Assembly (NCBI RefSeq): GCF_000282475.1
Contig: NZ_AKJF01000074.1
Coordinates: forward strand, 1-64,000
Length of the DNA stretch: 64,000 nucleotides
From: Pseudomonas sp. GM78
GTDB taxonomy: Bacteria; Pseudomonadota; Gammaproteobacteria; Pseudomonadales; Pseudomonadaceae
Direction of reading: 5' to 3'
Position 1 is the stretch's first letter. Each line of letters opens with the position of its first letter. Below the pieces are notes generated by a model. That model saw nothing but the letters and a program-made list of their open reading frames with translations, had not been told where the DNA came from and made no database searches. Made by a program: the position numbers and the translations under genes. Positions 8,559 through 23,965 of this stretch are shown in pieces.

Positions 8559-9128
8559 ATGAAGCGGTTATTGATCTTGCTTTTTGCCGGCCTGGTGTTG
8601 GCCGGTTGTGCCAGTTCTGGCCAGGACCCGTTGGCGCCCAAAACCGCCAACAGTGTCAATCTCAAGCGCTATCAAGGTACCTGGTACGAGTTGGCGCGAA
8701 TGCCGATGTACTTCCAGCGCGACTGCGCGCAATCCGAAGCCCACTACACGCTCAAGCCTGACGGTAACGTCGCGGTGTTGAATCGCTGCCTGACGGCACA
8801 GTGGCAATGGGAAGAGGTCAAGGGCACGGCGTATCCACAAGTCCCAGGCAAGAGCGACAAACTGTGGGTCGAATTCGATACCTGGTTTTCAAGGTTGATA
8901 CCGGGCGTGGCGAAGGGCGAATACTGGGTGTTGTACGTCAGCGATGACTACAAGACTGCTATCGTCGGCGACCCGAGTCGTCGTTACCTGTGGTTGCTGG
9001 CGCGCACACCGACCGTCAACGGTGTCGTGCGTGAAGAATTGCTGAGCAAGGCGCGTCAGCAGGGCTATGACACCACGCGGCTGATCTGGCGGGCGTCGGA
9101 TACGCAGATGGCGAAGACCTCGGACTGA
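8559..9128 (+). CDS. blc: Outer-membrane lipocalin (Blc type)
   Basis: A 189-residue lipoprotein of the bacterial lipocalin family, thought to bind fatty acids or lysophospholipids in the envelope. Signal peptide with lipobox L-A-G-C (Cys17). The lipocalin signature Y-Q-G-T-W-Y-E-L-A-R lies at residues 38-47, with the conserved G-x-W at 40-42. Later hallmarks are Y-W-V-L-Y-V-S-D-D-Y and Y-L-W-L-L-A-R-T-P. It is the second gene of a two-gene operon with the small lipoprotein. E. coli Blc responds to envelope stress; no promoter evidence for this is visible here. Confidence 0.93.
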   Translation: MKRLLILLFAGLVLAGCASSGQDPLAPKTANSVNLKRYQGTWYELARMPMYFQRDCAQSEAHYTLKPDGNVAVLNRCLTAQWQWEEVKGTAYPQVPGKSDKLWVEFDTWFSRLIPGVAKGEYWVLYVSDDYKTAIVGDPSRRYLWLLARTPTVNGVVREELLSKARQQGYDTTRLIWRASDTQMAKTSD

Positions 9129-9137
9129 CGGTTAACA

Positions 9138-9172
9138 CATGATCGTTCCCACGCAGAGCGTGGGAACGATCA
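9138..9172. repeat. Short perfect palindrome GATCGTTCCCACGC/GCGTGGGAACGATC
   Basis: A 14-base perfect inverted repeat with a three-base loop (AGA) lies between the convergent blc and hutF genes. It is one unit of the repeat family that forms the larger structure after hutG at 23976-24078. It could act as a bidirectional terminator or mRNA-stabilising hairpin, but no T-tract follows. Confidence 0.85.
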
Positions 9173-9183
9173 GTAGCAGGGTT

Positions 9184-10548
9184 TCAGCCCAAGAGTTCGC
9201 GCAGGACCTGAGTGAAGGCGCGATTGCTTTCCTCTTCCCCGGCATGCCGCCCGTCACGCACCACCCACTGGCCATTGACCAGCACATCACGCACCTGACG
9301 ATCGCCACCGGCAAACAACCACCGATTCAGAATCCCGTCACCACTGGCGGTCGCCAGATACGGATCGTTGCCATCCAGCACCAGCCAATCCGCGCGGTTA
9401 CCCACTTCCAGCGCGCCAATCGGCTGACCCAGCGCTTGTGCGCCGCCATCCAGTGCTGCGTCATACAGTGTGCGGCCGACCATCGGCTGGTCCGCGCCGT
9501 ACAACCGGTTACGACGCTGATCGCGCAAGCGTTGCCCGTATTCCAGCCAACGCAGTTCCTCCACCACGCTCAACGACACATGGCTGTCGGAACCGATGCC
9601 CATGCGCCCGCCCTGGGCGAGAAAATCCACTGCGGGGAAAATCCCGTCGCCCAGGTTGGCTTCGGTGGTCAGGCACAGGCCAGCGATGGCGCGACTCTTG
9701 GCCATCAGCGTGACTTCTTCCGGGTTGGCGTGGGTGGCATGGACCAGGCACCAGCGCTGATCGACTTCGGTATTTTCATACAGCCATTGCAGCGGACGAC
9801 GACCGCTCCAGCTCAGGCAGTCTTCGACTTCCTTCTGCTGTTCGGCGATATGAATGTGCACCGGGCATTGCTTGTCGCTGGCCGCCAGCACTTCGCTGAT
9901 CTGTTGCGGCGTGACCGCGCGCAATGAGTGGAAACACAAACCCAGGGACTGGGCCTTCTGCTGAGCCAGCAGGGGTTGCAGGCGCGATTGAAGCTTCAGG
10001 TAATTTTCGGTGCTGTTGATGAAGCGGCGCTGGCCGTCGTTCGGGCTCTGGCCACCGAAACCGGAATGACTGTAGAGCACCGGCAGCAGGGTCAGGCCAA
10101 TACCGGTTTCGCTGGCTGCCTGACTGATGCGCAGGGCCAGTTCAGCCGGGTCGGCATAAGGTTGGCCGTTGTGGTCATGGTGCACATAATGAAATTCCGC
10201 GACCGACGTGTAACCGGCCTTGAGCATTTCGATGTACAGCTGGCGGGCAATGACGCCGAGTTGTTCCGGGCTGATTTTTCCGACGAGGCGATACATCAGG
10301 TCGCGCCAGGTCCAGAAACTGTCATTCGGGTTACCTGCCACTTCCGCCAGCCCGGCCATTGCCCGCTGGAAGGCGTGGGAGTGCAGGTTCGGCATGCCTG
10401 GCAGCAGCGGACCGCTCAACCGTTCGGCGTCATCTGCATGGGAATCGGCCTGGATATGGGTCAGGACGCCATCGGCGCTGACCTCAAGACGTACATTGTT
10501 GGCCCATCCGTTAGGCAGCAGCGCGCGTTCGGCAAAGAAGGCGGACAT
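9184..10548 (-). CDS. hutF: Formimidoylglutamate deiminase
   Basis: A metal-dependent amidohydrolase-superfamily enzyme (454 residues) converting N-formimino-L-glutamate to N-formyl-L-glutamate plus ammonia in the five-step histidine pathway. Motifs: the metal-site N-L-H-S-H-A-F near residue 57, H-I-A-E-Q-Q-K-E-V near 232, V-H-A-T-H near 268, and G-S-D-S-H near 320. The gene is divergent from hutC across a 107-base region carrying a HutC-like palindrome. Presence of hutF together with hutG defines the two-step route to glutamate. Confidence 0.94.
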   Translation of the reverse strand: MSAFFAERALLPNGWANNVRLEVSADGVLTHIQADSHADDAERLSGPLLPGMPNLHSHAFQRAMAGLAEVAGNPNDSFWTWRDLMYRLVGKISPEQLGVIARQLYIEMLKAGYTSVAEFHYVHHDHNGQPYADPAELALRISQAASETGIGLTLLPVLYSHSGFGGQSPNDGQRRFINSTENYLKLQSRLQPLLAQQKAQSLGLCFHSLRAVTPQQISEVLAASDKQCPVHIHIAEQQKEVEDCLSWSGRRPLQWLYENTEVDQRWCLVHATHANPEEVTLMAKSRAIAGLCLTTEANLGDGIFPAVDFLAQGGRMGIGSDSHVSLSVVEELRWLEYGQRLRDQRRNRLYGADQPMVGRTLYDAALDGGAQALGQPIGALEVGNRADWLVLDGNDPYLATASGDGILNRWLFAGGDRQVRDVLVNGQWVVRDGRHAGEEESNRAFTQVLRELLG

Positions 10549-10572
10549 GGTTCAGCACCCCATCGTGTGTTA

Positions 10573-12416: not shown

Positions 12417-14099
12417 GTGACTGACAATAAAACTACCAAGTTTCGTGACGTTGAAATCCGCGCTGCCCGCGGTAACAAGCTGACCGCCAAGAGCTGGCTG
12501 ACCGAAGCGCCGCTGCGCATGCTGATGAACAACCTCGACCCGGAAGTCGCCGAGAACCCTAAGGAATTGGTGGTTTACGGTGGTATCGGTCGTGCGGCAC
12601 GTAACTGGGAATGCTACGACAAGATCGTCGAGAGCCTGACCAACCTGAACGACGACGAGACCCTTCTGGTGCAATCCGGCAAGCCGGTCGGCGTGTTCAA
12701 GACTCACGCCAATGCCCCGCGCGTATTGATCGCCAACTCCAACCTGGTGCCAAAATGGGCCAGCTGGGAACACTTCAACGAACTCGACGCCAAAGGCCTG
12801 GCCATGTACGGCCAGATGACCGCCGGCAGCTGGATCTACATCGGCAGCCAGGGCATCGTCCAGGGCACCTACGAAACCTTCGTCGAGGCTGGTCGCCAGC
12901 ACTACAACGATGACCTGACCGGCAAGTGGGTACTGACCGCTGGCCTGGGCGGCATGGGTGGCGCTCAACCCCTGGCTGCAACCCTGGCCGGCGCTTGCTC
13001 GCTGAACATCGAATGCCAGCAGGTCAGCATCGATTTCCGTTTGAACAGCCGCTACGTCGACGAGCAAGCCAAAGACCTCGACGACGCTCTGGCACGCATC
13101 GCCAAATACACCAAGGAAGGCAAAGCGATCTCCATCGCCCTGCTGGGTAACGCCGCTGAAATCCTGCCGGAACTGGTCAGTCGCGGTGTGCGTCCGGACA
13201 TGGTCACCGACCAGACCAGCGCCCACGACCCACTGAACGGCTACCTGCCAGCGGGCTGGACCTGGGAAGAGTACCGCGCTCGCGCCAAGACCGAGCCTGC
13301 TGCCGTGGTCAAAGCCGCCAAGCAATCGATGGCCGTACACGTTAAAGCGATGCTGGATTTCCAGAAAATGGGCATCCCGACTTTCGACTACGGCAACAAC
13401 ATCCGTCAGATGGCCCAGGAAGAAGGCGTGGAAAACGCATTCGACTTCCCAGGCTTCGTACCGGCTTACATTCGTCCACTGTTCTGCCGTGGCATCGGCC
13501 CGTTCCGTTGGGCTGCGCTGTCGGGCAACGCCGAAGACATTTACAAGACCGACGCCAAGGTAAAAGAGCTGATCCCGGACGACGCCCACCTGCACAACTG
13601 GCTGGACATGGCGCGTGAGCGCATCAGCTTCCAGGGTCTGCCGGCACGTATCTGCTGGGTTGGCCTGGGCCTGCGCGCCAAGCTGGGCCTGGCGTTCAAC
13701 GAAATGGTGCGCAGCGGTGAGCTGTCGGCGCCAATCGTGATCGGTCGCGACCACCTGGATTCCGGTTCTGTTTCCAGCCCGAACCGCGAAACCGAATCGA
13801 TGCAGGACGGTTCCGATGCCGTGTCCGACTGGCCACTGCTCAACGCCCTGCTCAACACCGCAAGCGGCGCGACCTGGGTGTCCCTGCACCACGGCGGCGG
13901 CGTCGGCATGGGCTTCTCCCAGCACTCGGGCATGGTGATTGTCTGCGATGGTACCGATGAAGCGGCCGAGCGTATCGCGCGCGTGCTGCACAACGACCCG
14001 GCGACCGGCGTCATGCGCCACGCCGATGCGGGTTACCAGATCGCGATCGACTGCGCCAAGGAACAAGGGCTGAACCTGCCGATGATTACCGGTAAATAA
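12417..14099 (+). CDS. hutU: Urocanate hydratase
   Basis: The 560-residue product uses tightly bound NAD+ as an electrophile to hydrate urocanate to 4-imidazolone-5-propionate. The NAD-binding glycine motif G-L-G-G-M-G-G-A is at residues 176-183 and the active-site cysteine is C413 in R-I-C-W-V-G-L-G, equivalent to Cys410 of the P. putida enzyme. The start is GTG, 7-8 bases after GAGGAG. About 135 bases of leader separate it from the predicted sigma54 promoter. It is the first gene of the long hutU-hutG transcript. Confidence 0.97.
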
Positions 14100-14104
14100 A
14101 CAAA

Positions 14105-14199
14105 CCTGTGGGAGCTGGCTTGCCAGCGATGGCGGCGGCATTGTCGGAATTGATGTTGAACATGCCGACGTCATCGCGGGCAAGCCCGCTCCCACAGGG
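14105..14199. repeat. REP pair (REPIN) between hutU and the permease gene
   Basis: Arms CCTGTGGGAGCTGGCTTGCCAGCGATG and CATCGCGGGCAAGCCCGCTCCCACAGG are related but not identical: each REP has its own compensated stem (CTGGC..GCCAG and GCGGG..CCCGC). The REPIN fills most of the 148-base gap inside the hut operon. Confidence 0.9.
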
Positions 14200-14247
14200 G
14201 CCGAGTAACCCGATAGAACAATTAAAACAATCCACAGAGGTTGAACC

Positions 14248-15720
14248 ATGGCTGTCAGCAGCGAACGTGCAGGCAACAAACCGTTGATCGAGAAACGTTC
14301 GATCGACTACATCCCGGAAGCGGAAAGACACGGTCGTCTGTTCAGCCAGTTCACCCTGTGGATGGGTGCCAACCTGCAAATCACCGCGATTGTCACCGGG
14401 GCCCTGGCCGTGGTGTTGGGCGGTGACGTGTTCTGGTCGTTGATCGGTCTGTTGATCGGCCAACTGATCGGCGGCGGCGTCATGGCACTGCATGCTGCGC
14501 AAGGGCCCAAGCTTGGCCTACCGCAGATGATCTCCAGCCGGGTGCAGTTCGGCGTTTATGGCGCGGCCATCCCGATCGTGCTGGTCTGCCTGATGTACCT
14601 GGGCTTCACTGCAACGGGCACCGTGCTGTCCGGACAGGCACTGGGCCAGTTGTTTGGTGTCAGTGACACCGTCGGTATCCTCATCTTCGCCAGTGTCATC
14701 GTGCTGGTCACGGTACTCGGTTATCGGGTGATCCACTGGATTGGCCGTGTTGCCAGCGTCATTGGTGTGATTGCCTTCGTTTACCTGTTCAGCCGTTTGA
14801 TGAGCCAGACTGACGTTGGCGCACTGCTGGAAATCCGCCACTTCAGCTGGAGCAGCTTCCTGCTTGCGGTGTCGCTCGCGGCGTCCTGGCAGATCGCCTT
14901 CGGCCCTTACGTGGCTGACTATTCACGCTACCTGCCGAGCAAGACTTCCTCGGTGAAAACCTTTTTCGCCGCTGGCGCAGGTTCGGTGATTGGCGCACAG
15001 GTGGCGATGATCCTCGGCGTGCTTGCCGCTGCCTCGGCCAACGGACAATTCGCCGGCCACGAAGTGGCCTACATCGTTGGTTTGGGCGGTACCGGTGCCA
15101 CCGCTGCGCTGCTGTATTTCAGCATTGCGTTCGGCAAGGTCACCATCTCCACGCTCAACTCCTACGGCAGCTTCATGTGCATTGCGACCATCATCAGCGG
15201 TTTCCGTGGTGACCTGAAGGTAACGCACTTGCAGCGTCTGGTCTTCGTGCTGGGCATCGTCGGTGCTGCGACCCTGATGGCGTTGCTCGGTCAGCACTCG
15301 TTCCTCGGCGCGTTCAAGTCTTTCATCCTGTTCCTGCTGGCGTTCTTTACTCCCTGGAGTGCGATCAACCTGGTGGACTACTACTGCATCACCCGCGAGC
15401 GCTATGACGTACCGGCGCTGGCTGATCCGAACGGTCGCTACGGCCGTTGGAACACCCTCGGTATCAGCGTCTATGTTTTCGGTGTGCTGGTGCAGCTGCC
15501 GTTCATCGCCACCAAGTTCTATACCGGTCCGCTGGTGGATGCCCTGGGTGGTGTGGATATTTCCTGGATTATCGGTCTGGTGATTCCCGCAGCCCTGTAT
15601 TACGTGTGTGCGAAAAAATGGCACGGAGCAGTACCTGATCACCTGATTCTGCCGCTCGAGCAGGACAGCGTTGTACAACCTAAAACAAGCGGGGCCGGTC
15701 GCGCTGCGGCGCAGGCCTGA
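14248..15720 (+). CDS. hutTu: NCS1-family permease (cytosine/purine permease type), probable urocanate transporter
   Basis: A 490-residue inner-membrane transporter with about twelve helices, of the nucleobase-cation symporter-1 family. Family signs include the N-terminal W-M-G-A-N-L-Q-I-T-A segment (residues 37-46), G-P-Y-V-A-D-Y-S-R-Y-L-P near 222-233, and N-L-V-D-Y-Y near 374-379. In the P. fluorescens hut locus the equivalent gene has been assigned to urocanate uptake. Substrate is thus inferred from position between hutU and hutX; the fold itself would also fit cytosine or hydantoin. It is preceded by a REPIN and by CAGAGG about ten bases before the ATG. Confidence 0.88.
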   Translation: MAVSSERAGNKPLIEKRSIDYIPEAERHGRLFSQFTLWMGANLQITAIVTGALAVVLGGDVFWSLIGLLIGQLIGGGVMALHAAQGPKLGLPQMISSRVQFGVYGAAIPIVLVCLMYLGFTATGTVLSGQALGQLFGVSDTVGILIFASVIVLVTVLGYRVIHWIGRVASVIGVIAFVYLFSRLMSQTDVGALLEIRHFSWSSFLLAVSLAASWQIAFGPYVADYSRYLPSKTSSVKTFFAAGAGSVIGAQVAMILGVLAAASANGQFAGHEVAYIVGLGGTGATAALLYFSIAFGKVTISTLNSYGSFMCIATIISGFRGDLKVTHLQRLVFVLGIVGAATLMALLGQHSFLGAFKSFILFLLAFFTPWSAINLVDYYCITRERYDVPALADPNGRYGRWNTLGISVYVFGVLVQLPFIATKFYTGPLVDALGGVDISWIIGLVIPAALYYVCAKKWHGAVPDHLILPLEQDSVVQPKTSGAGRAAAQA

Positions 15721-15789: not shown

Positions 15790-16758
15790 ATGAAATCGAA
15801 CAAGACCCTGCTGACCACATTGCTTTCCATGGGCCTGCTGGCCAGTGCCGGCGCCACTCAGGCGGCGGGTTGGTGCGAGTCAGGCAAACCGGTGAAATTC
15901 GCCGGCTTGAACTGGGAAAGCGCCATGCTGCTGACCGACGTGATGCAAGTCGTGCTGGAAAAAGGCTACGACTGCAAGACCGACAGCCTGCCGGGTAACT
16001 CCATCACCATGGAAAACGCCCTGAGCAGCAACGATATCCAGGTGTTCGCCGAAGAGTGGGTCGGCCGCAGCGAGGTCTGGAACAAGGCCGAGAAGGCCGG
16101 CAAGGTCGTCGGTGTCGGCGCTCCGGTCGTCGGTGCGATCGAAGGCTGGTACGTGCCGCGCTACGTGATCGAAGGCGATGCCAAGCGTAAGCTGGAACCC
16201 AAGGCCCCGGACCTGAAAAATATCGCTGACCTGGGCAAATACTCTGCCGTGTTCAAGGACGCCGAAGAGCCATCCAAAGGGCGTTTCTATAACTGCCCGG
16301 CCGGCTGGACCTGTGAGCTGGACAACAGTGAAATGCTGAAAAGCTACGGCCTGGAAAGCACCTACACCAACTTCCGCCCAGGCACCGGCCCGGCCTTGGA
16401 TGCCGCCGTGCTGTCGAGCTACAAGCGTGGCGAACCGATCCTGTTCTACTACTGGTCGCCAACGCCGTTGATGGGTCAGGTCGACGTCGTGAAGCTCGAA
16501 GAGAAGCCCGGCGTGAACAAGACCGTGACCATCAAGGTCGGCCTGTCCAAGACTTTCCACGAAGAGGCGCCGGAACTGGTGGCCGTACTGGATAAGGTCA
16601 ACATTCCAATCGACCTGCTGAACCAGAACCTGGGCCGCATGACCAAAGAGCGGATCGAGTCGCCAAAACTGGCCAAGATCTTCTTGAAGGAACATCCTGA
16701 AGTCTGGCACGCCTGGGTAAGTGAAGACGCAGCCAAGAAAATCGACGCGGCCTTGTAG
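15790..16758 (+). CDS. hutX: ABC transporter substrate-binding protein for histidine (glycine betaine/OpuAC-like fold)
   Basis: The periplasmic binding component of the HutXWV importer, 322 residues. The ATG with TAGGAG upstream is chosen; a longer frame from 15721 lacks a signal peptide. The signal peptide is at residues 1-26 ending A-T-Q-A-A. The mature protein has the choline/proline-betaine-type fold rather than that of the HisJ family, with hallmarks G-L-N-W-E-S-A-M-L-L-T-D and the Trp-rich E-E-W-V-G-R-S-E-V-W segment. Histidine specificity is inferred from the hut locus. The permease and ATPase genes follow. Confidence 0.93.
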   Translation: MKSNKTLLTTLLSMGLLASAGATQAAGWCESGKPVKFAGLNWESAMLLTDVMQVVLEKGYDCKTDSLPGNSITMENALSSNDIQVFAEEWVGRSEVWNKAEKAGKVVGVGAPVVGAIEGWYVPRYVIEGDAKRKLEPKAPDLKNIADLGKYSAVFKDAEEPSKGRFYNCPAGWTCELDNSEMLKSYGLESTYTNFRPGTGPALDAAVLSSYKRGEPILFYYWSPTPLMGQVDVVKLEEKPGVNKTVTIKVGLSKTFHEEAPELVAVLDKVNIPIDLLNQNLGRMTKERIESPKLAKIFLKEHPEVWHAWVSEDAAKKIDAAL

Positions 16759-16828: not shown

Positions 16829-17680
16829 ATGTTTCCCGAAAGCTTTACCTTTTCCATCGCCGACTGGGTCAACGGTTGGGTCGATTCGCTGGTCACCAAC
16901 TACGGCGATGTGTTCCGCAGCATCTCCGACACCCTGTTGTGGGCCATCGTCAATCTTGAAGGGCTGCTGCGTGCGGCCCCCTGGTGGCTGATGCTGGCGA
17001 TCGTGGCGGGCGTTGCCTGGCACGCGACCCGCAAAGTGGTGACCACGGCGGTCATCGTCGGCTTGCTGTTCCTGGTGGGCGCGGTCGGCCTCTGGGACAA
17101 GCTGATGCAGACCCTGGCGCTGATGATGGTGGCCACGGTCATTTCGGTGCTGATCGGCATCCCGTTGGGCATCCTCTCGGCCCGCAGCAATCGCCTGCGT
17201 TCGGTGCTGATGCCGTTGCTGGACATCATGCAGACCATGCCGAGCTTCGTGTACCTGATCCCGGTGCTGATGCTGTTCGGCCTGGGCAAGGTCCCGGCGA
17301 TTTTCGCCACCGTGATCTACGCCGCGCCACCGCTGATCCGCCTGACCGACCTGGGGATTCGCCAGGTTGACGGCGAGGTGATGGAAGCCATCAACGCCTT
17401 CGGTGCCAACCGTTGGCAGCAACTGTTCGGTGTGCAATTGCCGCTGGCCCTGCCAAGCATCATGGCCGGGATCAACCAGACCACCATGATGGCCCTGTCG
17501 ATGGTGGTGATCGCCTCGATGATCGGTGCCCGTGGCCTGGGTGAAGACGTGCTGGTGGGGATTCAGACCCTCAACGTCGGACGCGGGCTGGAAGCCGGCC
17601 TGGCGATCGTGATTCTGGCAGTGGTGATCGACCGCATTACACAGGCGTACGGTCGTGCACGGCATGAGGTGAGCAAATGA
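16829..17680 (+). CDS. hutW: Histidine ABC transporter permease
   Basis: A 283-residue inner-membrane permease of the ProW/OpuAB type with about six helices. The conserved binding-protein-dependent transport loop is seen as E-A-I-N-A-F-G-A-N-R-W-Q-Q-L-F-G-V-Q-L-P at about residues 189-208. An N-terminal amphipathic stretch (P-E-S-F-T-F-S-I-A-D-W-V-N-G-W-V) precedes the first helix, as in ProW. It overlaps hutV by four bases, so the two subunits are translationally coupled. Confidence 0.94.
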   Translation: MFPESFTFSIADWVNGWVDSLVTNYGDVFRSISDTLLWAIVNLEGLLRAAPWWLMLAIVAGVAWHATRKVVTTAVIVGLLFLVGAVGLWDKLMQTLALMMVATVISVLIGIPLGILSARSNRLRSVLMPLLDIMQTMPSFVYLIPVLMLFGLGKVPAIFATVIYAAPPLIRLTDLGIRQVDGEVMEAINAFGANRWQQLFGVQLPLALPSIMAGINQTTMMALSMVVIASMIGARGLGEDVLVGIQTLNVGRGLEAGLAIVILAVVIDRITQAYGRARHEVSK

Positions 17681-18507
17681 ACAACGCAACCGTGAGCAAG
17701 ATCGAAGTCAAGAACGTCTTCAAGATTTTCGGCAACCGCGCCAAGGATGCCCTGGCGATGGTTGGCCAGGGCAAGACCAAGGATCAGGTGCTGTCCGAAA
17801 CCGGCTGCGTGGTCGGCGTGAACGATTTGTCCCTGAGCATCGGCAGCGGCGAGATCTTCGTGATCATGGGCCTGTCCGGTTCCGGCAAATCCACCCTGGT
17901 CCGCCACTTCAATCGCCTGATCGACCCGACCAGCGGCGCGATCCTGGTGGATGGCGTGGACATCCTGCAATACGACATGGAAGCCCTGCGCGAATTTCGC
18001 CGGCGCAAGATCAGCATGGTGTTCCAGAGCTTTGGCCTACTGCCGCACAAGAGCGTGCTGGACAACGTCGCCTACGGCTTGAAAATCCGTGGCGAGAGTA
18101 AGCAGATGTGTGCCGAGCGCGCGCTGCATTGGATCAACACCGTGGGCCTTAAGGGCTACGAAAACAAATACCCGCACCAGCTCTCCGGCGGCATGCGCCA
18201 GCGTGTAGGTTTGGCCCGGGCGTTGGCGGCGGACACCGACATCATCCTGATGGACGAAGCGTTCAGCGCCCTCGATCCGTTGATTCGCGCCGAGATGCAG
18301 GACCAGTTGCTGGAACTGCAAAAGACCCTGCACAAGACCATCGTCTTCATCACCCACGACCTCGACGAGGCCGTGCGCATCGGCAACCGCATCGCGATCC
18401 TCAAGGACGGCCGCCTGATCCAGGTCGGCACGCCACGAGAGATCCTGCATTCGCCTGCGGATGAGTATGTCGACCGGTTCGTGCAGCGTCGGGCGGCGGT
18501 GGTTTAA
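17677..18507 (+). CDS. hutV: Histidine ABC transporter ATP-binding protein
   Basis: A 276-residue ATPase of the ProV/OpuAA class. Walker A is G-L-S-G-S-G-K-S-T (residues about 62-70), the signature is L-S-G-G-M-R-Q-R-V-G-L-A-R, and Walker B is I-I-L-M-D-E-A followed by the switch histidine in I-T-H-D. It lacks the C-terminal CBS pair of the longer ProV proteins. The N-terminal segment K-D-A-L-A-M-V-G-Q-G-K-T-K-D-Q-V, before the nucleotide-binding core, is typical of this subclass. It completes HutXWV; a REPIN follows directly. Confidence 0.95.
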   Translation: MNNATVSKIEVKNVFKIFGNRAKDALAMVGQGKTKDQVLSETGCVVGVNDLSLSIGSGEIFVIMGLSGSGKSTLVRHFNRLIDPTSGAILVDGVDILQYDMEALREFRRRKISMVFQSFGLLPHKSVLDNVAYGLKIRGESKQMCAERALHWINTVGLKGYENKYPHQLSGGMRQRVGLARALAADTDIILMDEAFSALDPLIRAEMQDQLLELQKTLHKTIVFITHDLDEAVRIGNRIAILKDGRLIQVGTPREILHSPADEYVDRFVQRRAAVV

Positions 18508-18534: not shown

Positions 18535-18629
18535 TTCGCGGGCAAGCCCGCTCCCACAGGTTCTGAGGTATGCACACTATCTGTGTAACAAAGCCTGTCC
18601 CTGTGGGAGCGGGCTTGCCCGCGATGAGG
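18535..18629. repeat. REP pair (REPIN) between hutV and hutH1
   Basis: Inverted copies TTCGCGGGCAAGCCCGCTCC and GGAGCGGGCTTGCCCGCGAT extend through CCCACAGG/CCTGTGGG on their inner sides and flank about 40 bases. The element fills the 160-base gap within the hut operon. Confidence 0.92.
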
Positions 18630-18668: not shown

Positions 18669-20192
18669 ATGTCCCAGGCTGAAAAAATCGTTATCGCCGA
18701 CGCCCCGTTGCGTTGGCAGGATGTGGTTGCAGTCGCCCGTCACGGCGCACCGCTTGAACTGTCGGCGCAGGCCTGGGCGCGCATCGAGAATGCCCAGGCA
18801 ATCGTCCAGCGCATCGTCGCCAGCGGCGAACGCGCCTATGGCGTGAACACCGGCCTGGGCGCCTTGTGCAACGTTTCGCTCAAAGACGAACAACTGAGCC
18901 AGCTGTCGCGCAATACCCTGCTCAGTCACGCCTGCGGCGTTGGCGCACCGTTGGCCGACGAGCAGACCCGCGCAATCATGTGTGCGGCGATCCTCAACTT
19001 CACCCAAGGCAAATCCGGCGTGCATCGTCGGGTGGTCGAAGCCCTGCTGGCGCTGCTCAATCGCGGCATCACCCCGCAAGTGCCGTCCCAGGGTTCGGTC
19101 GGTTACCTGACCCACATGGCCCACATCAGTATTGCCCTGCTGGGGGTCGGCAATGTCAGCTATCGCGGGCAAGTCGTGCCTTCGCAACAGGCACTGGCCG
19201 AAGAAGGCCTGCAACCGGTTCAACTCGGCGCCAAGGACGGTCTGTGCCTGGTCAATGGCACACCGTGCATGAGTGGCCTCAGCTGCCTGGCGATTGCCGA
19301 CGCCACGCGCCTGCTGCAATGGGCCGACGTGATCAGCGCCATGAGCTTCGAGGCCCAACGTGGGCAGATCGCTGCGTTCGATGCCGAGATCATCGCGCTC
19401 AAGCCGCATCCGGGCATGCAACGGGTCGGGATCAACCTGCGTGCGTTGCTCGATGGCAGTGAAGTGATTGCACAGAGCAAAGGCATTCGTACCCAGGATG
19501 CATTGAGCATCCGCTCGATCCCGCAGGTGCACGGCGCCGCTCGCGATCAGCTCGATCACGCGATCAAGCAAGTCGAAACCGAACTGAACGGCTGCACCGA
19601 TAACCCGTTGCTGTTGGGGACGCCAGACAACTTCCGGGTCATGTCCCAGGCCAATCCTCACGGGCAATCGGTGGCGCTGGCGGCGGACCTGCTGGCCATC
19701 GCCATGGCGGAAATCGGCTCCATCGCCGAGCGTCGCCTGGACCGTTTGATCAACCCGCACGTCAGCGGTCTGCCGGCATTCCTGGTGGCCAATCCCGGGG
19801 TGAACTCCGGGATGATGATCGTGCAGTACGTCGCCGCTTCGCTGTGCGCGGAAAATCGCCAACTGGCGCAACCGGCAGTGCTCGATAACTACGTGACTTC
19901 GGGCTTGCAGGAAGACCACCTGAGCATGGGCACCAACGCCGCGCTGAAGCTGCATCGCGCGCTGGAAAACTGCACGCAGATTCTCGCCATCGAGTACCTG
20001 CTGGCGGCCCAGGCCTTTGAATTTCTCAAAGAGCAGCGCTTCGGCGCCGGTACCGATGCGGCATGGCGTCTGTTGCGTGAGCGCGTGCCTGCCTACGATC
20101 AGGACCGCTGGCTGGCGCCGGACATCGCCGCCGCCGCCAGCATTTTGAAAGACCCGGCTTTGTTGCAAAAGGCGTTACCGAATCTGAACTGA
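18669..20192 (+). CDS. hutH1: Histidine ammonia-lyase paralog lacking the MIO-forming Ala-Ser-Gly
   Basis: A 507-residue member of the aromatic amino-acid lyase family; the start is the ATG that follows TGAGGT. It aligns throughout with HutH2 and keeps Tyr57 (R-A-Y-G-V-N-T-G), the N-G-T segment (G-L-C-L-V-N-G-T), Arg282 and the L-Q-E-D-H-L-S-M block. However, where HutH2 has [14 protein letters not shown] it reads G-S-V-G-Y-L-T-H-M-A-H: precisely A-S-G, the tripeptide that cyclises to MIO, is missing between G145 and Y146. The catalytic tyrosine of D-P-Y-S-L-R is replaced (D-A-L-S-I-R, Leu279). A conventional ammonia-lyase activity is therefore unlikely; the reading frame is intact, so it is not an obvious pseudogene. 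Confidence 0.9.
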   Translation: MSQAEKIVIADAPLRWQDVVAVARHGAPLELSAQAWARIENAQAIVQRIVASGERAYGVNTGLGALCNVSLKDEQLSQLSRNTLLSHACGVGAPLADEQTRAIMCAAILNFTQGKSGVHRRVVEALLALLNRGITPQVPSQGSVGYLTHMAHISIALLGVGNVSYRGQVVPSQQALAEEGLQPVQLGAKDGLCLVNGTPCMSGLSCLAIADATRLLQWADVISAMSFEAQRGQIAAFDAEIIALKPHPGMQRVGINLRALLDGSEVIAQSKGIRTQDALSIRSIPQVHGAARDQLDHAIKQVETELNGCTDNPLLLGTPDNFRVMSQANPHGQSVALAADLLAIAMAEIGSIAERRLDRLINPHVSGLPAFLVANPGVNSGMMIVQYVAASLCAENRQLAQPAVLDNYVTSGLQEDHLSMGTNAALKLHRALENCTQILAIEYLLAAQAFEFLKEQRFGAGTDAAWRLLRERVPAYDQDRWLAPDIAAAASILKDPALLQKALPNLN

Positions 20193-20311: not shown

Positions 20312-21844
20312 ATGACTGCGCTTAATTTGATTCCCGGCCAACTGAGCCTTGCCCAACTGCGTGATGTTTATCAGCAACCGGTCAAAATCACCCTCGACCA
20401 CAGCGCCGCGGCCCAGATCGAAGCCAGCGTTGCCTGCGTGGAGCAGATCCTCGCCGAGAACCGCACCGCCTACGGCATCAACACCGGTTTCGGCCTGCTG
20501 GCCTCGACCCGTATCGCCAGCGAAGACCTGGAAAACCTGCAGCGCTCGCTGGTGCTGTCTCATGCCGCCGGTGTCGGCGAACCGATCAGCGACGCGTTGG
20601 TACGCCTGGTCATGGTGCTCAAGGTCAACAGCCTGAGCCGTGGTTTCTCCGGAATCCGTCGTGTGGTGATCGACGCGCTGATCGCCTTGATCAACGCCGA
20701 GGTCTACCCGCACATTCCACTCAAAGGTTCGGTCGGTGCGTCCGGCGACCTGGCACCGTTGGCGCACATGTCGCTGGTGCTGCTGGGCGAAGGCAAGGCG
20801 CGCTACAAGGGCGAGTGGATGGAAGCCACCGAAGCGCTGAAAGTCGCCGGCCTGACCCCGCTGACCCTGGCCGCGAAAGAAGGCCTGGCGCTGCTCAACG
20901 GCACGCAAGTGTCCACCGCGTTTGCCCTGCGCGGTCTGTTTGAAGGTGAAGACCTGTTCGCCGGCGCCCTGGCCCTCGGTGGCCTGACTGTCGAAGCCGT
21001 GCTGGGTTCGCGCTCGCCATTCGATGCACGCATCCACGCCGCCCGTGGCCAGAAAGGCCAGATCGATGCCGCTGCCGCTTACCGCGATCTGCTGGGCGAG
21101 CGCAGTGAAGTCTCCGATTCGCACGAAAACTGCGAGAAGGTCCAGGACCCGTACTCCCTGCGTTGCCAGCCGCAAGTCATGGGCGCCTGCCTGACCCAGT
21201 TCCGCCAGGCTGCCGAAGTGCTGGCGATCGAAGCCAACGCCGTCTCCGATAACCCGCTGGTGTTCGCCGCCGAAGGTGACGTGATTTCCGGCGGTAACTT
21301 CCACGCCGAACCGGTGGCCATGGCCGCTGACAACATGGCCTTGGCCATCGCTGAAATCGGCTCCCTGAGCGAGCGCCGCATTTCGCTGATGATGGACAAG
21401 CACATGTCGCAACTGCCGCCGTTCCTGGTGGCCAATGGCGGTGTGAACTCCGGCTTCATGATCGCCCAGGTGACCGCCGCGGCGCTGGCCAGCGAGAACA
21501 AGGCGCTGTCCCATCCGCATTCGGTGGACAGTCTGCCGACGTCCGCCAACCAGGAGGACCATGTATCCATGGCCCCGGCTGCGGGCAAGCGTCTGTGGGA
21601 AATGGCCGAGAACACCCGTGGCATCCTGGCTGTGGAATGGCTGGCCGCCGCTCAGGGCCTGGACCTGCGCAATGGCCTGAAGACTTCGCCAAAGCTGGAA
21701 AAGGCCCGCGCCATCCTGCGTAACGAAGTGCCGTTTTATGAGAAGGATCGCTTCTTTGCGCCGGACATTAATGCGGCGAGCGAGTTGTTGGCTTCGCGTT
21801 GCTTGAATGAGCTGGTTTCGGCGAAGTTGCTGCCTAGCCTGTGA
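20312..21844 (+). CDS. hutH2: Histidine ammonia-lyase (histidase)
   Basis: A 510-residue enzyme that deaminates L-histidine to urocanate, the first step of the pathway. MIO-forming A143-S144-G145 lies in [14 protein letters not shown]; catalytic Tyr54 is in [10 protein letters not shown], Tyr281 in D-P-Y-S-L-R, and the glutamate in N-Q-E-D-H-V-S-M. All residues needed for catalysis in the P. putida enzyme are present. A strong AAGGAG precedes the ATG by about seven bases. It follows hutH1 after 119 bases and is the only complete histidase of the locus. Confidence 0.96.
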
Positions 21845-21945: not shown

Positions 21946-23151
21946 ATGAAAACCCTCTGGCAACACTGCCACGTCGCAACCATGGCCCAAGGCGTCTACT
22001 CGATCATCGAGGATGCGGCCATCGTGACGTCCGGTGCGCACATCGAGTGGGTCGGCCCGCGCAGTGAACTGCCGTCCGGCGAGTACCCGGCGGTCAATGA
22101 ATTGAACGGGGCCTGGGTCACTCCCGGCCTGATCGACTGCCACACCCACACGGTGTTCGGCGGTAATCGCAGTGGCGAATTCGAGCAACGCCTGCAAGGC
22201 GTCAGCTACGCGGAAATTGCAGCAAGCGGTGGCGGCATCGCCAGCACCGTGCGTGCCACTCGCGCGGCCAGCGAAGACGAACTGTTCGCCAGCGCCGCCA
22301 AGCGCCTGAAAAGCCTGATGCGCGACGGCGTCACCAGCATCGAAATCAAATCCGGATACGGCCTGGACCTGGCCAACGAACGCAAGATGCTTCGAGTCGC
22401 CCGTCGTCTCGGTGCCGAACTGCCGGTCAGCGTGCGCAGCACCTGCCTGGCGGCTCACGCCTTGCCGCCGGAGTACACCGATCGCGCCGACGATTACATC
22501 GATCACATCTGCAGTGAAATGCTCCCCGCCCTGGCTGCCGAAGGGCTGGTGGACGCGGTGGATGCCTTTTGCGAATACCTGGCGTTTTCCCCAGCTCAGG
22601 TTGAGCGCGTATTCATCACTGCCCGGGAACTGGGTCTGCCGGTGAAGCTGCACGCCGAGCAGCTCTCGTCCCTGCACGGCTCGAGCCTCGCGGCGCGTTA
22701 CCACGCACTGTCGGCCGATCATCTGGAATTCATGACCGAAGACGACGCCATCGCCATGGCCAAGTCCGGCACGGTGGCGGTGTTGCTGCCAGGCGCCTTC
22801 TATTTCCTGCGCGAGACCCAATTGCCGCCGATGGAGGCCTTGCGCAAGCACGGGGTGAAAATCGCCATCGCCAGCGACCTCAACCCCGGCACCTCGCCGG
22901 CGCTTTCGTTGCGCTTGATGTTGAACATGGCCTGCACCTGTTTCCGCATGACCCCGGAGGAGGCCCTGGCGGGCGCGACGATTCATGCCGCCACGGCATT
23001 GGGCTTGTCCGCTACCCACGGTTCGCTGGAGGCAGGCAAGGTCGCGGATTTCGTTGCCTGGCAAATCGATCGCCCGGCCGACTTGTGCTACTGGCTGGGC
23101 GGCGACCTGGAAAAACGCGTCGTGCGTCACGGCGTCGAAACAAGTCTGTAG
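21946..23151 (+). CDS. hutI: Imidazolonepropionase
   Basis: A 401-residue zinc- or iron-dependent amidohydrolase opening the ring of 4-imidazolone-5-propionate to give N-formimino-L-glutamate. The first metal site is D-C-H-T-H-T-V-F (His66, His68). Further hallmarks are E-I-K-S-G-Y-G-L near residue 128, K-L-H-A-E-Q-L-S-S near 232 and A-S-D-L-N-P-G-T near 306. It is followed after ten bases by hutG, with AGGAGAG forming the hutG ribosome-binding site. Length and motifs are standard. Confidence 0.96.
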
Positions 23152-23161
23152 GAGAGCAGTT

Positions 23162-23965
23162 GTGGATAAGGTTCTGAACTTCAAACAAGGGCGCGTACCG
23201 CTGCTGATCAGCATGCCTCATGCCGGTGTGCGTCTGACCCCTGCAGTCGAAGCCGGGTTGATCCCCGACGCGAAAAGCTTACCGGACACCGACTGGCACA
23301 TCCCGCAGCTATACGATTTCGCCGCCGAACTGGGTGCCAGCACCCTCGCCGCCGAATACTCGCGGTTCGTCATCGACCTGAACCGGCCGTCCGACGACAA
23401 GCCTTTGTATGTTGGCGCCACCACCGGTCTGTACCCGGCGACCCTGTTCGACGGTATCCCGTTGTTCCGCGAAGGCCTGGAGCCTTCGAAGGAAGAGCGT
23501 GCAACTTATCTGGAACAGATCTGGACGCCGTACCACAGTACCTTGCAGCAAGAGCTGGCGCGCCTCAAAGCCGAATTCGGCTATGCACTGCTTTTCGACG
23601 CGCACTCGATCCGCTCGATCATCCCGCACCTGTTCGACGGCAAGCTGCCGGACTTCAACCTCGGTACCTTCAACGGCGCCAGTTGTGATCCGCAGCTGGC
23701 TTCGCAGCTGGAAACGATCTGCTCCGGTCACCCGGACTACAGCCATGTGCTGAACGGGCGCTTCAAGGGCGGGCACATCACTCGTCACTACGGCAATCCG
23801 GCAGAAAACATTCATGCCGTGCAACTGGAGCTGGGGCAGTGCACGTATATGGAAGAGTTCGAGCCGTTCCGTTATCGGCCGGATCTGGCCGAGCCGACGC
23901 GGGTGGTGTTGAAGGAATTGCTGCAAGGCCTGCTGGCCTGGGGCGAAAAGCATTACAACGTGTAA
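23162..23965 (+). CDS. hutG: N-formylglutamate deformylase
   Basis: The product releases formate from N-formyl-L-glutamate to give glutamate, the last step of the HutF branch. The GTG start eight bases after AGGAG gives 267 residues, the usual length; the open frame extends upstream into hutI but has no support there. Motifs: S-M-P-H-A-G-V-R near residue 18, D-A-H-S-I-R-S near 143 and a G-G-H-I-T-R-H-Y-G motif near 201, typical of the N-formylglutamate amidohydrolase family. It is the last gene of the operon and is followed by a large palindromic structure. Confidence 0.95.
   Translation: MDKVLNFKQGRVPLLISMPHAGVRLTPAVEAGLIPDAKSLPDTDWHIPQLYDFAAELGASTLAAEYSRFVIDLNRPSDDKPLYVGATTGLYPATLFDGIPLFREGLEPSKEERATYLEQIWTPYHSTLQQELARLKAEFGYALLFDAHSIRSIIPHLFDGKLPDFNLGTFNGASCDPQLASQLETICSGHPDYSHVLNGRFKGGHITRHYGNPAENIHAVQLELGQCTYMEEFEPFRYRPDLAEPTRVVLKELLQGLLAWGEKHYNV

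Follow-up and report, generated by a model that had tools for sequence, protein, structure and literature searches.

Why should a bacterium keep, ahead of an ordinary histidase gene, a second hutH gene whose product lacks the catalytic group of the family? The question is raised by a stretch of 64,000 nucleotides from Pseudomonas sp. GM78 (contig NZ_AKJF01000074.1, positions 1 to 64,000), which we call the window. It carries a histidine utilization (hut) cluster in which hutH1, encoding a member of the aromatic amino acid lyase family, is followed by hutH2, encoding a histidine ammonia-lyase (HAL) with the usual 4-methylideneimidazole-5-one (MIO) group (Table 1). We consider it likely that HutH1 is an active, MIO-free trimethylamine-lyase that converts hercynine (histidine betaine), once imported, to urocanate, the substrate of HutU. 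A sequence-only reading of the locus had proposed a pseudoenzyme, a mixed oligomer with HutH2 or a new chemistry; the present analysis moves the interpretation toward one specific activity, similar to that of ergothionase but directed at histidine betaine.

The MIO Site and the Active-Site Residues of HutH1

By both fold and sequence, HutH1 falls within the aromatic amino acid lyases. Its predicted structure is confidently the lyase fold, with the weakest parts of the model around residues 141-150 and 401-420 (block values of the predicted local distance difference test: 79, 74 and 69), and its score of 548.3 lies above the cut-off of 539.15 of the NCBIfam hutH model (TIGR01225). Nevertheless, it does not qualify as an MIO-dependent histidine ammonia-lyase, as Ala-Ser-Gly and the catalytic Tyr280 are both absent; the HAL of Pseudomonas putida (1b8f) has MIO as well as Tyr280. 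At the MIO site, the alignment reads GSVGY---LTHMAH in HutH1 and GSVGASGD in HutH2, and YLTH stands in place of the HutH2 segment ASGDLAP, three residues fewer. The sequence-only reading had described exactly the MIO tripeptide as missing. The net loss is indeed of three residues, but the conserved Asp that follows Ala-Ser-Gly is lost too, and the description was slightly too neat. In the region of Tyr280, HutH1 has QDALSIR and HutH2 has QDPYSLR. The residue numbers given in that reading are correct in our alignment: Leu279 stands for Tyr281 of HutH2, and Tyr57 and Arg282 are kept, as are His87, Asn196, Gln276 and Glu415. A further difference, absent from that reading, is the change of Phe329 of HAL to Pro330. 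HAL mutants at both changed positions are among the solved entries in our structure alignment (Y280F, 1gkj; F329A and F329G, 1eb4 and 1gk2).

Which positions separate the two kinds of protein? We compared 134 distinct HutH1-type sequences with 152 HutH2-type sequences, assigned by their scores to HutH1 and HutH2 alone. All 134 HutH1-type sequences lack MIO and have Leu, no ortholog with Ala-Ser-Gly being found among them, and all 152 HutH2-type sequences have MIO and Tyr. Exceptionless differences occur at seven of 493 HAL positions (Q76S, A142Y, loss of 143-145, P148H and Y280L), and six of the seven make up the MIO loop and Tyr280. A row set chosen in part on the MIO site, Leu280 and Asn195, and to that extent circular, gives these seven as well. 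Ten further positions separate the sets at looser thresholds (97% and 95%). H83, N195, Q277, R283 and E414 are identical in every row of both sets (some rows come from a search whose seed patterns include Asn195), and Y53 is identical in every row that covers it. The column of Phe329 holds Pro in 111 of the HutH1-type rows, Ala in 22 and Cys in one.

Among 311 distinct sequences of the family, Tyr280 is found in 159 of 159 with MIO and Leu280 in 149 of 152 without it, the majority of these 152 being HutH1-type. A strict rule that absence of MIO entails Leu280 fitted 202 sequences and was then abandoned on meeting three exceptions: L224 (3833-5413), L225 (5671-7326) and the first copy in L226 (3855-5429). 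They constitute a separate group in the tree, from Pseudomonas, which keeps Tyr280 and Phe329 and reads GSVGY---LAVEGH or LGPEGH at the MIO site. In L225, HutU and an amino-acid ATP-binding cassette (ABC) transporter lie beside this lyase.

Distribution and Selection

Of the 149 genomes sampled in the genus, 104 have a HutH1 ortholog (at least 600 bits); one of the 104 has an internal stop codon, and one match ends at residue 470. Of 398 genomes sampled across the phylum, 13 contain the exact GSVGYLTHM motif, that of the window among them. Members of the clade are also found in other Proteobacteria and in Firmicutes, with loci in Pseudomonas, Serratia, Pantoea, Erwinia, Polaromonas, Burkholderia, Rhizobium, Halomonas, Paracoccus, Paenibacillus and Sulfobacillus, among others (the search of named genomes covered the best 80 of at least 592 loci).

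HutH1 is under purifying selection. For sequence pairs with a synonymous divergence (dS) of 0.05-1, the median ratio of nonsynonymous to synonymous divergence (dN/dS) is 0.125 for HutH1 (37 sequences), 0.068 for HutH2 (34), 0.090 for HutX (36) and 0.062 for HutU (35), so the constraint on HutH1 is clear, if somewhat weaker. These values and the spread of orthologs through the genus agree with the suggestion of the sequence-only reading that selection maintains the gene, and the frame is open from end to end, as had been noted. Gene decay is ruled out by conservation in many genera and a dN/dS of about 0.12, and so is a sequencing error, which that reading had named as a way in which its case could fail. 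We excluded two loci in which a broken HAL adjoins an intact HutH1 (Serratia rubidaea, L140; Polaromonas, L138), as adjacent genes are split there too, a pattern of error-rich assemblies.

A telling genome is that of Paenibacillus eucommiae, where the HutH1-type gene is the sole PF00221 match in 10.3 Mb (completeness not given) and adjoins HutU, HutI and an OpuAC-type ABC transporter. This setting is hard to explain if HutH1 needs HutH2, and natural if HutH1 makes urocanate from something imported. It bears directly on the view that HutH1 is a dead pseudoenzyme, serving as a sensor of histidine or urocanate or as a partner subunit of HutH2. Such a role would fit the absence of the catalytic group that defines the family and the position next to hutH2 in many pseudomonads. 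However, the other pocket residues are kept in all 134 distinct rows, selection is not relaxed, frames are intact in nearly all of the 104 orthologs, no other family match was found in P. eucommiae, and the gene is tied to transporters (see below). We regard a pseudoenzyme as very unlikely. What survives of the sequence-only interpretation is the action of selection, the doubt that HutH1 is a normal histidase and the option of a new chemistry; the pseudoenzyme and the mixed oligomer are not supported.

Transporters beside HutH1-Type Genes

We counted a transporter gene as a neighbor if it lies on the same strand within approximately 4.5 kb. By this criterion, a transporter adjoins the HutH1-type gene in 93 of 101 distinct loci of the clade (105 loci less four repeats of a genome). 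Matches to HutX, HutW or HutV are found in 50 of the 101 loci and, with an amino-acid ABC transporter in addition, in three. Carriers of the betaine/carnitine/choline family (BCCT) are found in nine, and an OpuAC-type ABC transporter in one (Paenibacillus). Of the 93 transporter-bearing loci, 60 have transporters of betaine type (OpuAC-family ABC or BCCT) and 30 have opine-like ones. The BCCT assignment was obtained with Pfam in all four loci tested (Oceanimonas, Paracoccus, Halomonas and G050). Eight loci have no transporter by our criterion (L157, L169, L170, L173, L174, L071, L226 and L227); in L169, an SBP_bac_5 binding protein lies upstream.

As a control, we hand-chose 40 hut loci from 127 genomes with a HutU match. 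Six were excluded, five with no long PF00221 open reading frame (ORF) in the stretch and one with an extra MIO-less gene, leaving 34 with MIO-type HutH only. BCCT and HutX are each found in 0 of these 34 loci, an amino-acid ABC transporter in one, and a match to the HutV-like ATPase only in three. The reference proteins for the neighbor search were drawn from loci of the clade and its relatives, so this search may overlook further carrier families in both the clade loci and the control. Within the genus, 95 of the 104 genomes with HutH1 have a HutX ortholog at a distance of 2.7-3.6 kb from it, and HutX is present in one of the 45 genomes without it (Fisher p-value 1.4e-27, not corrected for kinship).

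The OpuAC domain, of glycine-betaine type, is found in HutX, in the Paenibacillus binding protein and in the binding proteins beside two further groups of MIO-less lyases (B and C, described below). The solved chains nearest to HutX are binding proteins of glycine betaine/proline type, and the ChoX-type chain 2reg is also among the matches. Trp41, Trp89, Trp119 and Trp221 (numbering starts one codon after the ATG) occur in all 44 compared HutX sequences and align with Trp residues of the solved betaine-type relative 7yle; such residues presumably form a cation cage. As known families, BCCT and OpuAC-type carriers favor fully methylated amines.

Two kinds of neighbor found in a few loci are further pointers to methylated amines. 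Two Pseudomonas genomes (L226 and L227) have second, more distant members of the clade, with a reductase adjacent and a Rieske oxygenase within approximately 1 kb. The oxygenase of L227 is nearest to 4qup ("Monoxygenase; demethylase"), 3vca (which we take to be stachydrine demethylase) and 3n0q, followed by carnitine monooxygenase (6y8j). A SolA-like oxidase is found in the clusters of L021, L180 and L232, that of L021 belonging to the DAO family. In Salinicola corii (L162), one hut cluster holds two different MIO-less lyases (8914-10554 and 12984-14522), a BCCT carrier and a second ABC transporter.

A Possible Route for Histidine Betaine into the hut Pathway

How might these features fit together? 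HutXWV, or in relatives a BCCT or other ABC transporter, would import hercynine (N-alpha-trimethylhistidine). His87 and Glu415 would hold its imidazole and Arg282 its carboxylate, in the way histidase binds histidine, and the removal of MIO and of Tyr would give room for the three methyl groups. Beta-elimination would then yield trimethylamine and urocanate, the latter entering HutU-HutI-HutF-HutG. Free histidine requires MIO since ammonia leaves poorly; a trimethylammonium departs readily by itself, and MIO and the adjacent Tyr may be dispensable for that reason. The MIO loss, the Tyr-to-Leu change, the kept pocket residues, the purifying selection and the transporter linkage are observed, and from them we infer hercynine as the substrate, the release of trimethylamine and the part played by the pocket changes. 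There is a precedent in ergothionase, which PMC13405746 describes as a trimethylamine-lyase that acts on ergothioneine without an MIO cofactor. The sequence-only reading, which did allow for a new chemistry, had overlooked both this MIO-less enzyme, which shares the Tyr-to-Leu change, and the adjacent HutXWV, a transporter of betaine type.

A slow, MIO-free histidine ammonia-lyase would be consistent with the score of HutH1 above the hutH cut-off. But both elements of amine activation are gone, and hutH1 is reported in PMC8871633 to be dispensable for growth of P. fluorescens SBW25 on histidine. According to PMC12772324, P. aeruginosa lacking the hutH gene PA5098 is defective on histidine as sole carbon and nitrogen source; judging from the gene order in strain PA7 (L135), PA5098 would be of the MIO type. 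We find a slow histidase highly improbable.

Several observations count against a hercynine lyase. Our searches of the open PubMed Central library turned up no report of such an enzyme, nor of an activity, substrate or binding for any member of the clade, and earlier reports are possible. HutH1 has a dN/dS about double the value for HutH2. Loss of MIO does not always go with Leu, since the three MIO-less relatives with Tyr280 lie outside the HutH1 clade. The precedent of ergothionase is partial because the Treponema denticola enzyme has Ser at position 195, where HutH1 has Asn, and keeps Phe329, which HutH1 does not. One Pseudomonas genome (G439; C22, L236), the sole such case, has HutC and HutXWV with no match in the HutH1 search. 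HutXWV takes part in histidine uptake in SBW25, as stated in PMC8871633. An amino-acid ABC transporter is the only transporter in 30 of the 101 loci, and the one binding protein of this kind tested (L018) finds its best matches in octopine- and nopaline-binding proteins, a kinship that suggests N-substituted amino acids and not clearly betaines.

Given these opine-like transporters, other N-substituted histidines could serve as substrate. A lyase acting without MIO on partly methylated histidine, or on a histidine opine, would again produce urocanate, and it would suit the amino-acid ABC transporter being the second commonest and the SolA-like oxidase of three clusters. On chemical grounds, however, secondary and tertiary amines leave poorly when MIO is missing, and the preference of BCCT and OpuAC-type carriers points to a fully methylated substrate; we judge such a lyase unlikely and favor hercynine.

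In a broader and slightly less confident form, we think it probable that HutH1, as a widespread MIO-free trimethylamine-lyase, provides a route for histidine betaine into hut and that "HutH" labels hide MIO-free betaine lyases, in bacteria and haloarchaea, which are marked by the loss of Ala-Ser-Gly together with Tyr280Leu and are often linked to betaine transporters. If true, this would explain a second "histidase" in SBW25 and its relatives that is not needed on histidine, and the common hutH annotation would be wrong, as TIGR01225 accepts HutH1. The textbook hut pathway would gain a new entry, for a betaine. Hercynine is made by fungi and actinobacteria and would be a possible food source for soil bacteria. 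MIO loss with Tyr280Leu would provide a sequence rule for spotting MIO-free trimethylamine-lyases, and the chemical lesson would be that a quaternary amine as leaving group lets the MIO electrophile be dropped.

The hut Cluster in the Window

The genes of the cluster are listed in Table 1 in their order on the + strand (hutU, permease, hutXWV, hutH1, hutH2, hutI and hutG). For Pseudomonas, a review reports that hutU and hutH are separated by this same insert. The permease gene stands at the position of hutTu, described in PMC8871633 as the urocanate transporter gene of SBW25. For hutX, an ATG inside a longer frame was chosen as the start, and our queries began one codon later.

Table 1. Features of the hut cluster and of hutH1 in the window
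Feature	Coordinates	Strand	Description
hutU	12417..14099	+	urocanase; TIGR01228, 1013.7 bits; NF058530 (thiourocanate hydratase), 686.1, below cut-off 930
NCS1-family permease	14248..15720	+	at position of hutTu
hutX	15790..16758	+	OpuAC-family (betaine-type) periplasmic binding protein; PF04069
hutW	16829..17680	+	permease; nearest choline and ProW permeases, below the cut-offs of those models
hutV	17677..18507	+	betaine/proline/choline-family ABC ATPase; TIGR01186 over cut-off
hutH1	18669..20192	+	MIO-less member of aromatic amino acid lyase family (PF00221); 507 aa, open frame
GSVGYLTHM	19092..19118	+	where histidine ammonia-lyases hold MIO-forming Ala-Ser-Gly, then Asp
Leu279 codon	19503..19505	+	replaces Tyr280 of Pseudomonas putida HAL (Tyr281 in HutH2)
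Pro330 codon	19656..19658	+	replaces HAL Phe329
hutH2	20312..21844	+	ordinary MIO-bearing histidine ammonia-lyase; TIGR01225, 727.5 bits; GSVGASGD, QDPYSLR
hutI	21946..23151	+	imidazolonepropionase; TIGR01224 over cut-off
ORF holding hutG	22985..23965	+	N-formylglutamate deformylase; TIGR02017 match at residues 63-321

Two inverted pairs of GGGAGCGGGCTTGCC-type repeats lie in the gap between hutU and the permease gene (14110-14193) and in that between hutV and hutH1 (18541-18619), four matches where 0.54 are expected; they are probably repetitive extragenic palindromic (REP) doublets. The same genome has a third member of the lyase family outside the window (G000:C74:90052-91446; L057). It bears MIO, with QDRYSLR and NQDK, and its protein is less HutH-like than HutH1 and HutH2.

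Comparison with Ergothionase and Other MIO-Less Lyases

HutH1 resembles ergothionase in having the same fold without MIO and Leu at position 280. Solved examples for comparison come from Treponema denticola (6s7j/6s7q); 6s7j has SSIGEGD at the MIO site and QDPLSFR, that is, the same Tyr-to-Leu change as HutH1 with a different loop remnant. Might HutH1 then be an ergothionase itself, or a lyase of another sulfur-bearing derivative of ergothioneine? The shared traits would be expected, but ergothionase acts on a sulfur-bearing substrate and belongs to a thiourocanate route. In the window's genome there is a single HutU match, which is below the NF058530 thiourocanate hydratase cut-off, and none over it. 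None of the motif-bearing genomes exceeds this cut-off either (five genomes do; 12 of the 13 motif-bearing genomes are listed, G356 is not). Ser at position 195 is found in lyases beside thiourocanate hydratase as well as in the T. denticola enzyme; group C, which falls in the same clade, has Val or Ala there. Ergothioneine is a less likely substrate because HutH1 keeps Asn195 and its genome has no thiourocanate hydratase over the cut-off. With the trait columns removed from the alignment, the tree places HutH1 (36 rows; support 99/97) and ergothionase (10 rows; 100/99) in separate clades. We rejected HutH1 as an ergothionase proper, and find this wider possibility quite unlikely.

The tree contains several long branches. 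Neither a single clade of all MIO-less rows (p-value of the approximately unbiased test, 0.301) nor a clade of HutH1 with ergothionase (0.251) is rejected; by parsimony, the MIO trait takes three changes, and the data are compatible with one loss of MIO or with several.

Group B (L066 and L069), group C (L068 and L059), the haloarchaeal lyases (L186, 289-1788; L223, 3989-5470) and a Deinococcus lyase (L187) also have no MIO and have Leu280, but they belong to other clades than HutH1 and have other pocket residues. OpuAC-type binding proteins lie beside L066 and L068, and HutU beside L066 and L223. L066 (5983-7515) is part of a hut-like island on a Klebsiella pneumoniae plasmid (hutU, OpuAC-type ABC transporter, MIO-less lyase, hutD, hutC and hutF), with transposase genes of the IS5 and IS66 families on one side. 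The Haloarcula lyase adjoins HutU and an OsmF-like betaine-binding protein, and its locus encodes a protein with below-cut-off matches to hydantoin-propionate amidohydrolase and other hydantoinase-type models. A gene of Paraburkholderia graminis (L067, 5953-7479) was expected to encode an ergothionase; it carries MIO and Tyr and was used as an MIO row only. It lies in a plasmid cluster with amidohydrolases, and the urocanase-like protein there scores about equally with the HutU and S-methyl-thiourocanate hydratase models.

Through common ancestry or convergence, the loss of MIO together with Leu at position 280 accompanies MIO-free elimination in the one case of known chemistry, that of ergothionase, and by analogy HutH1 may eliminate trimethylamine in the same manner.
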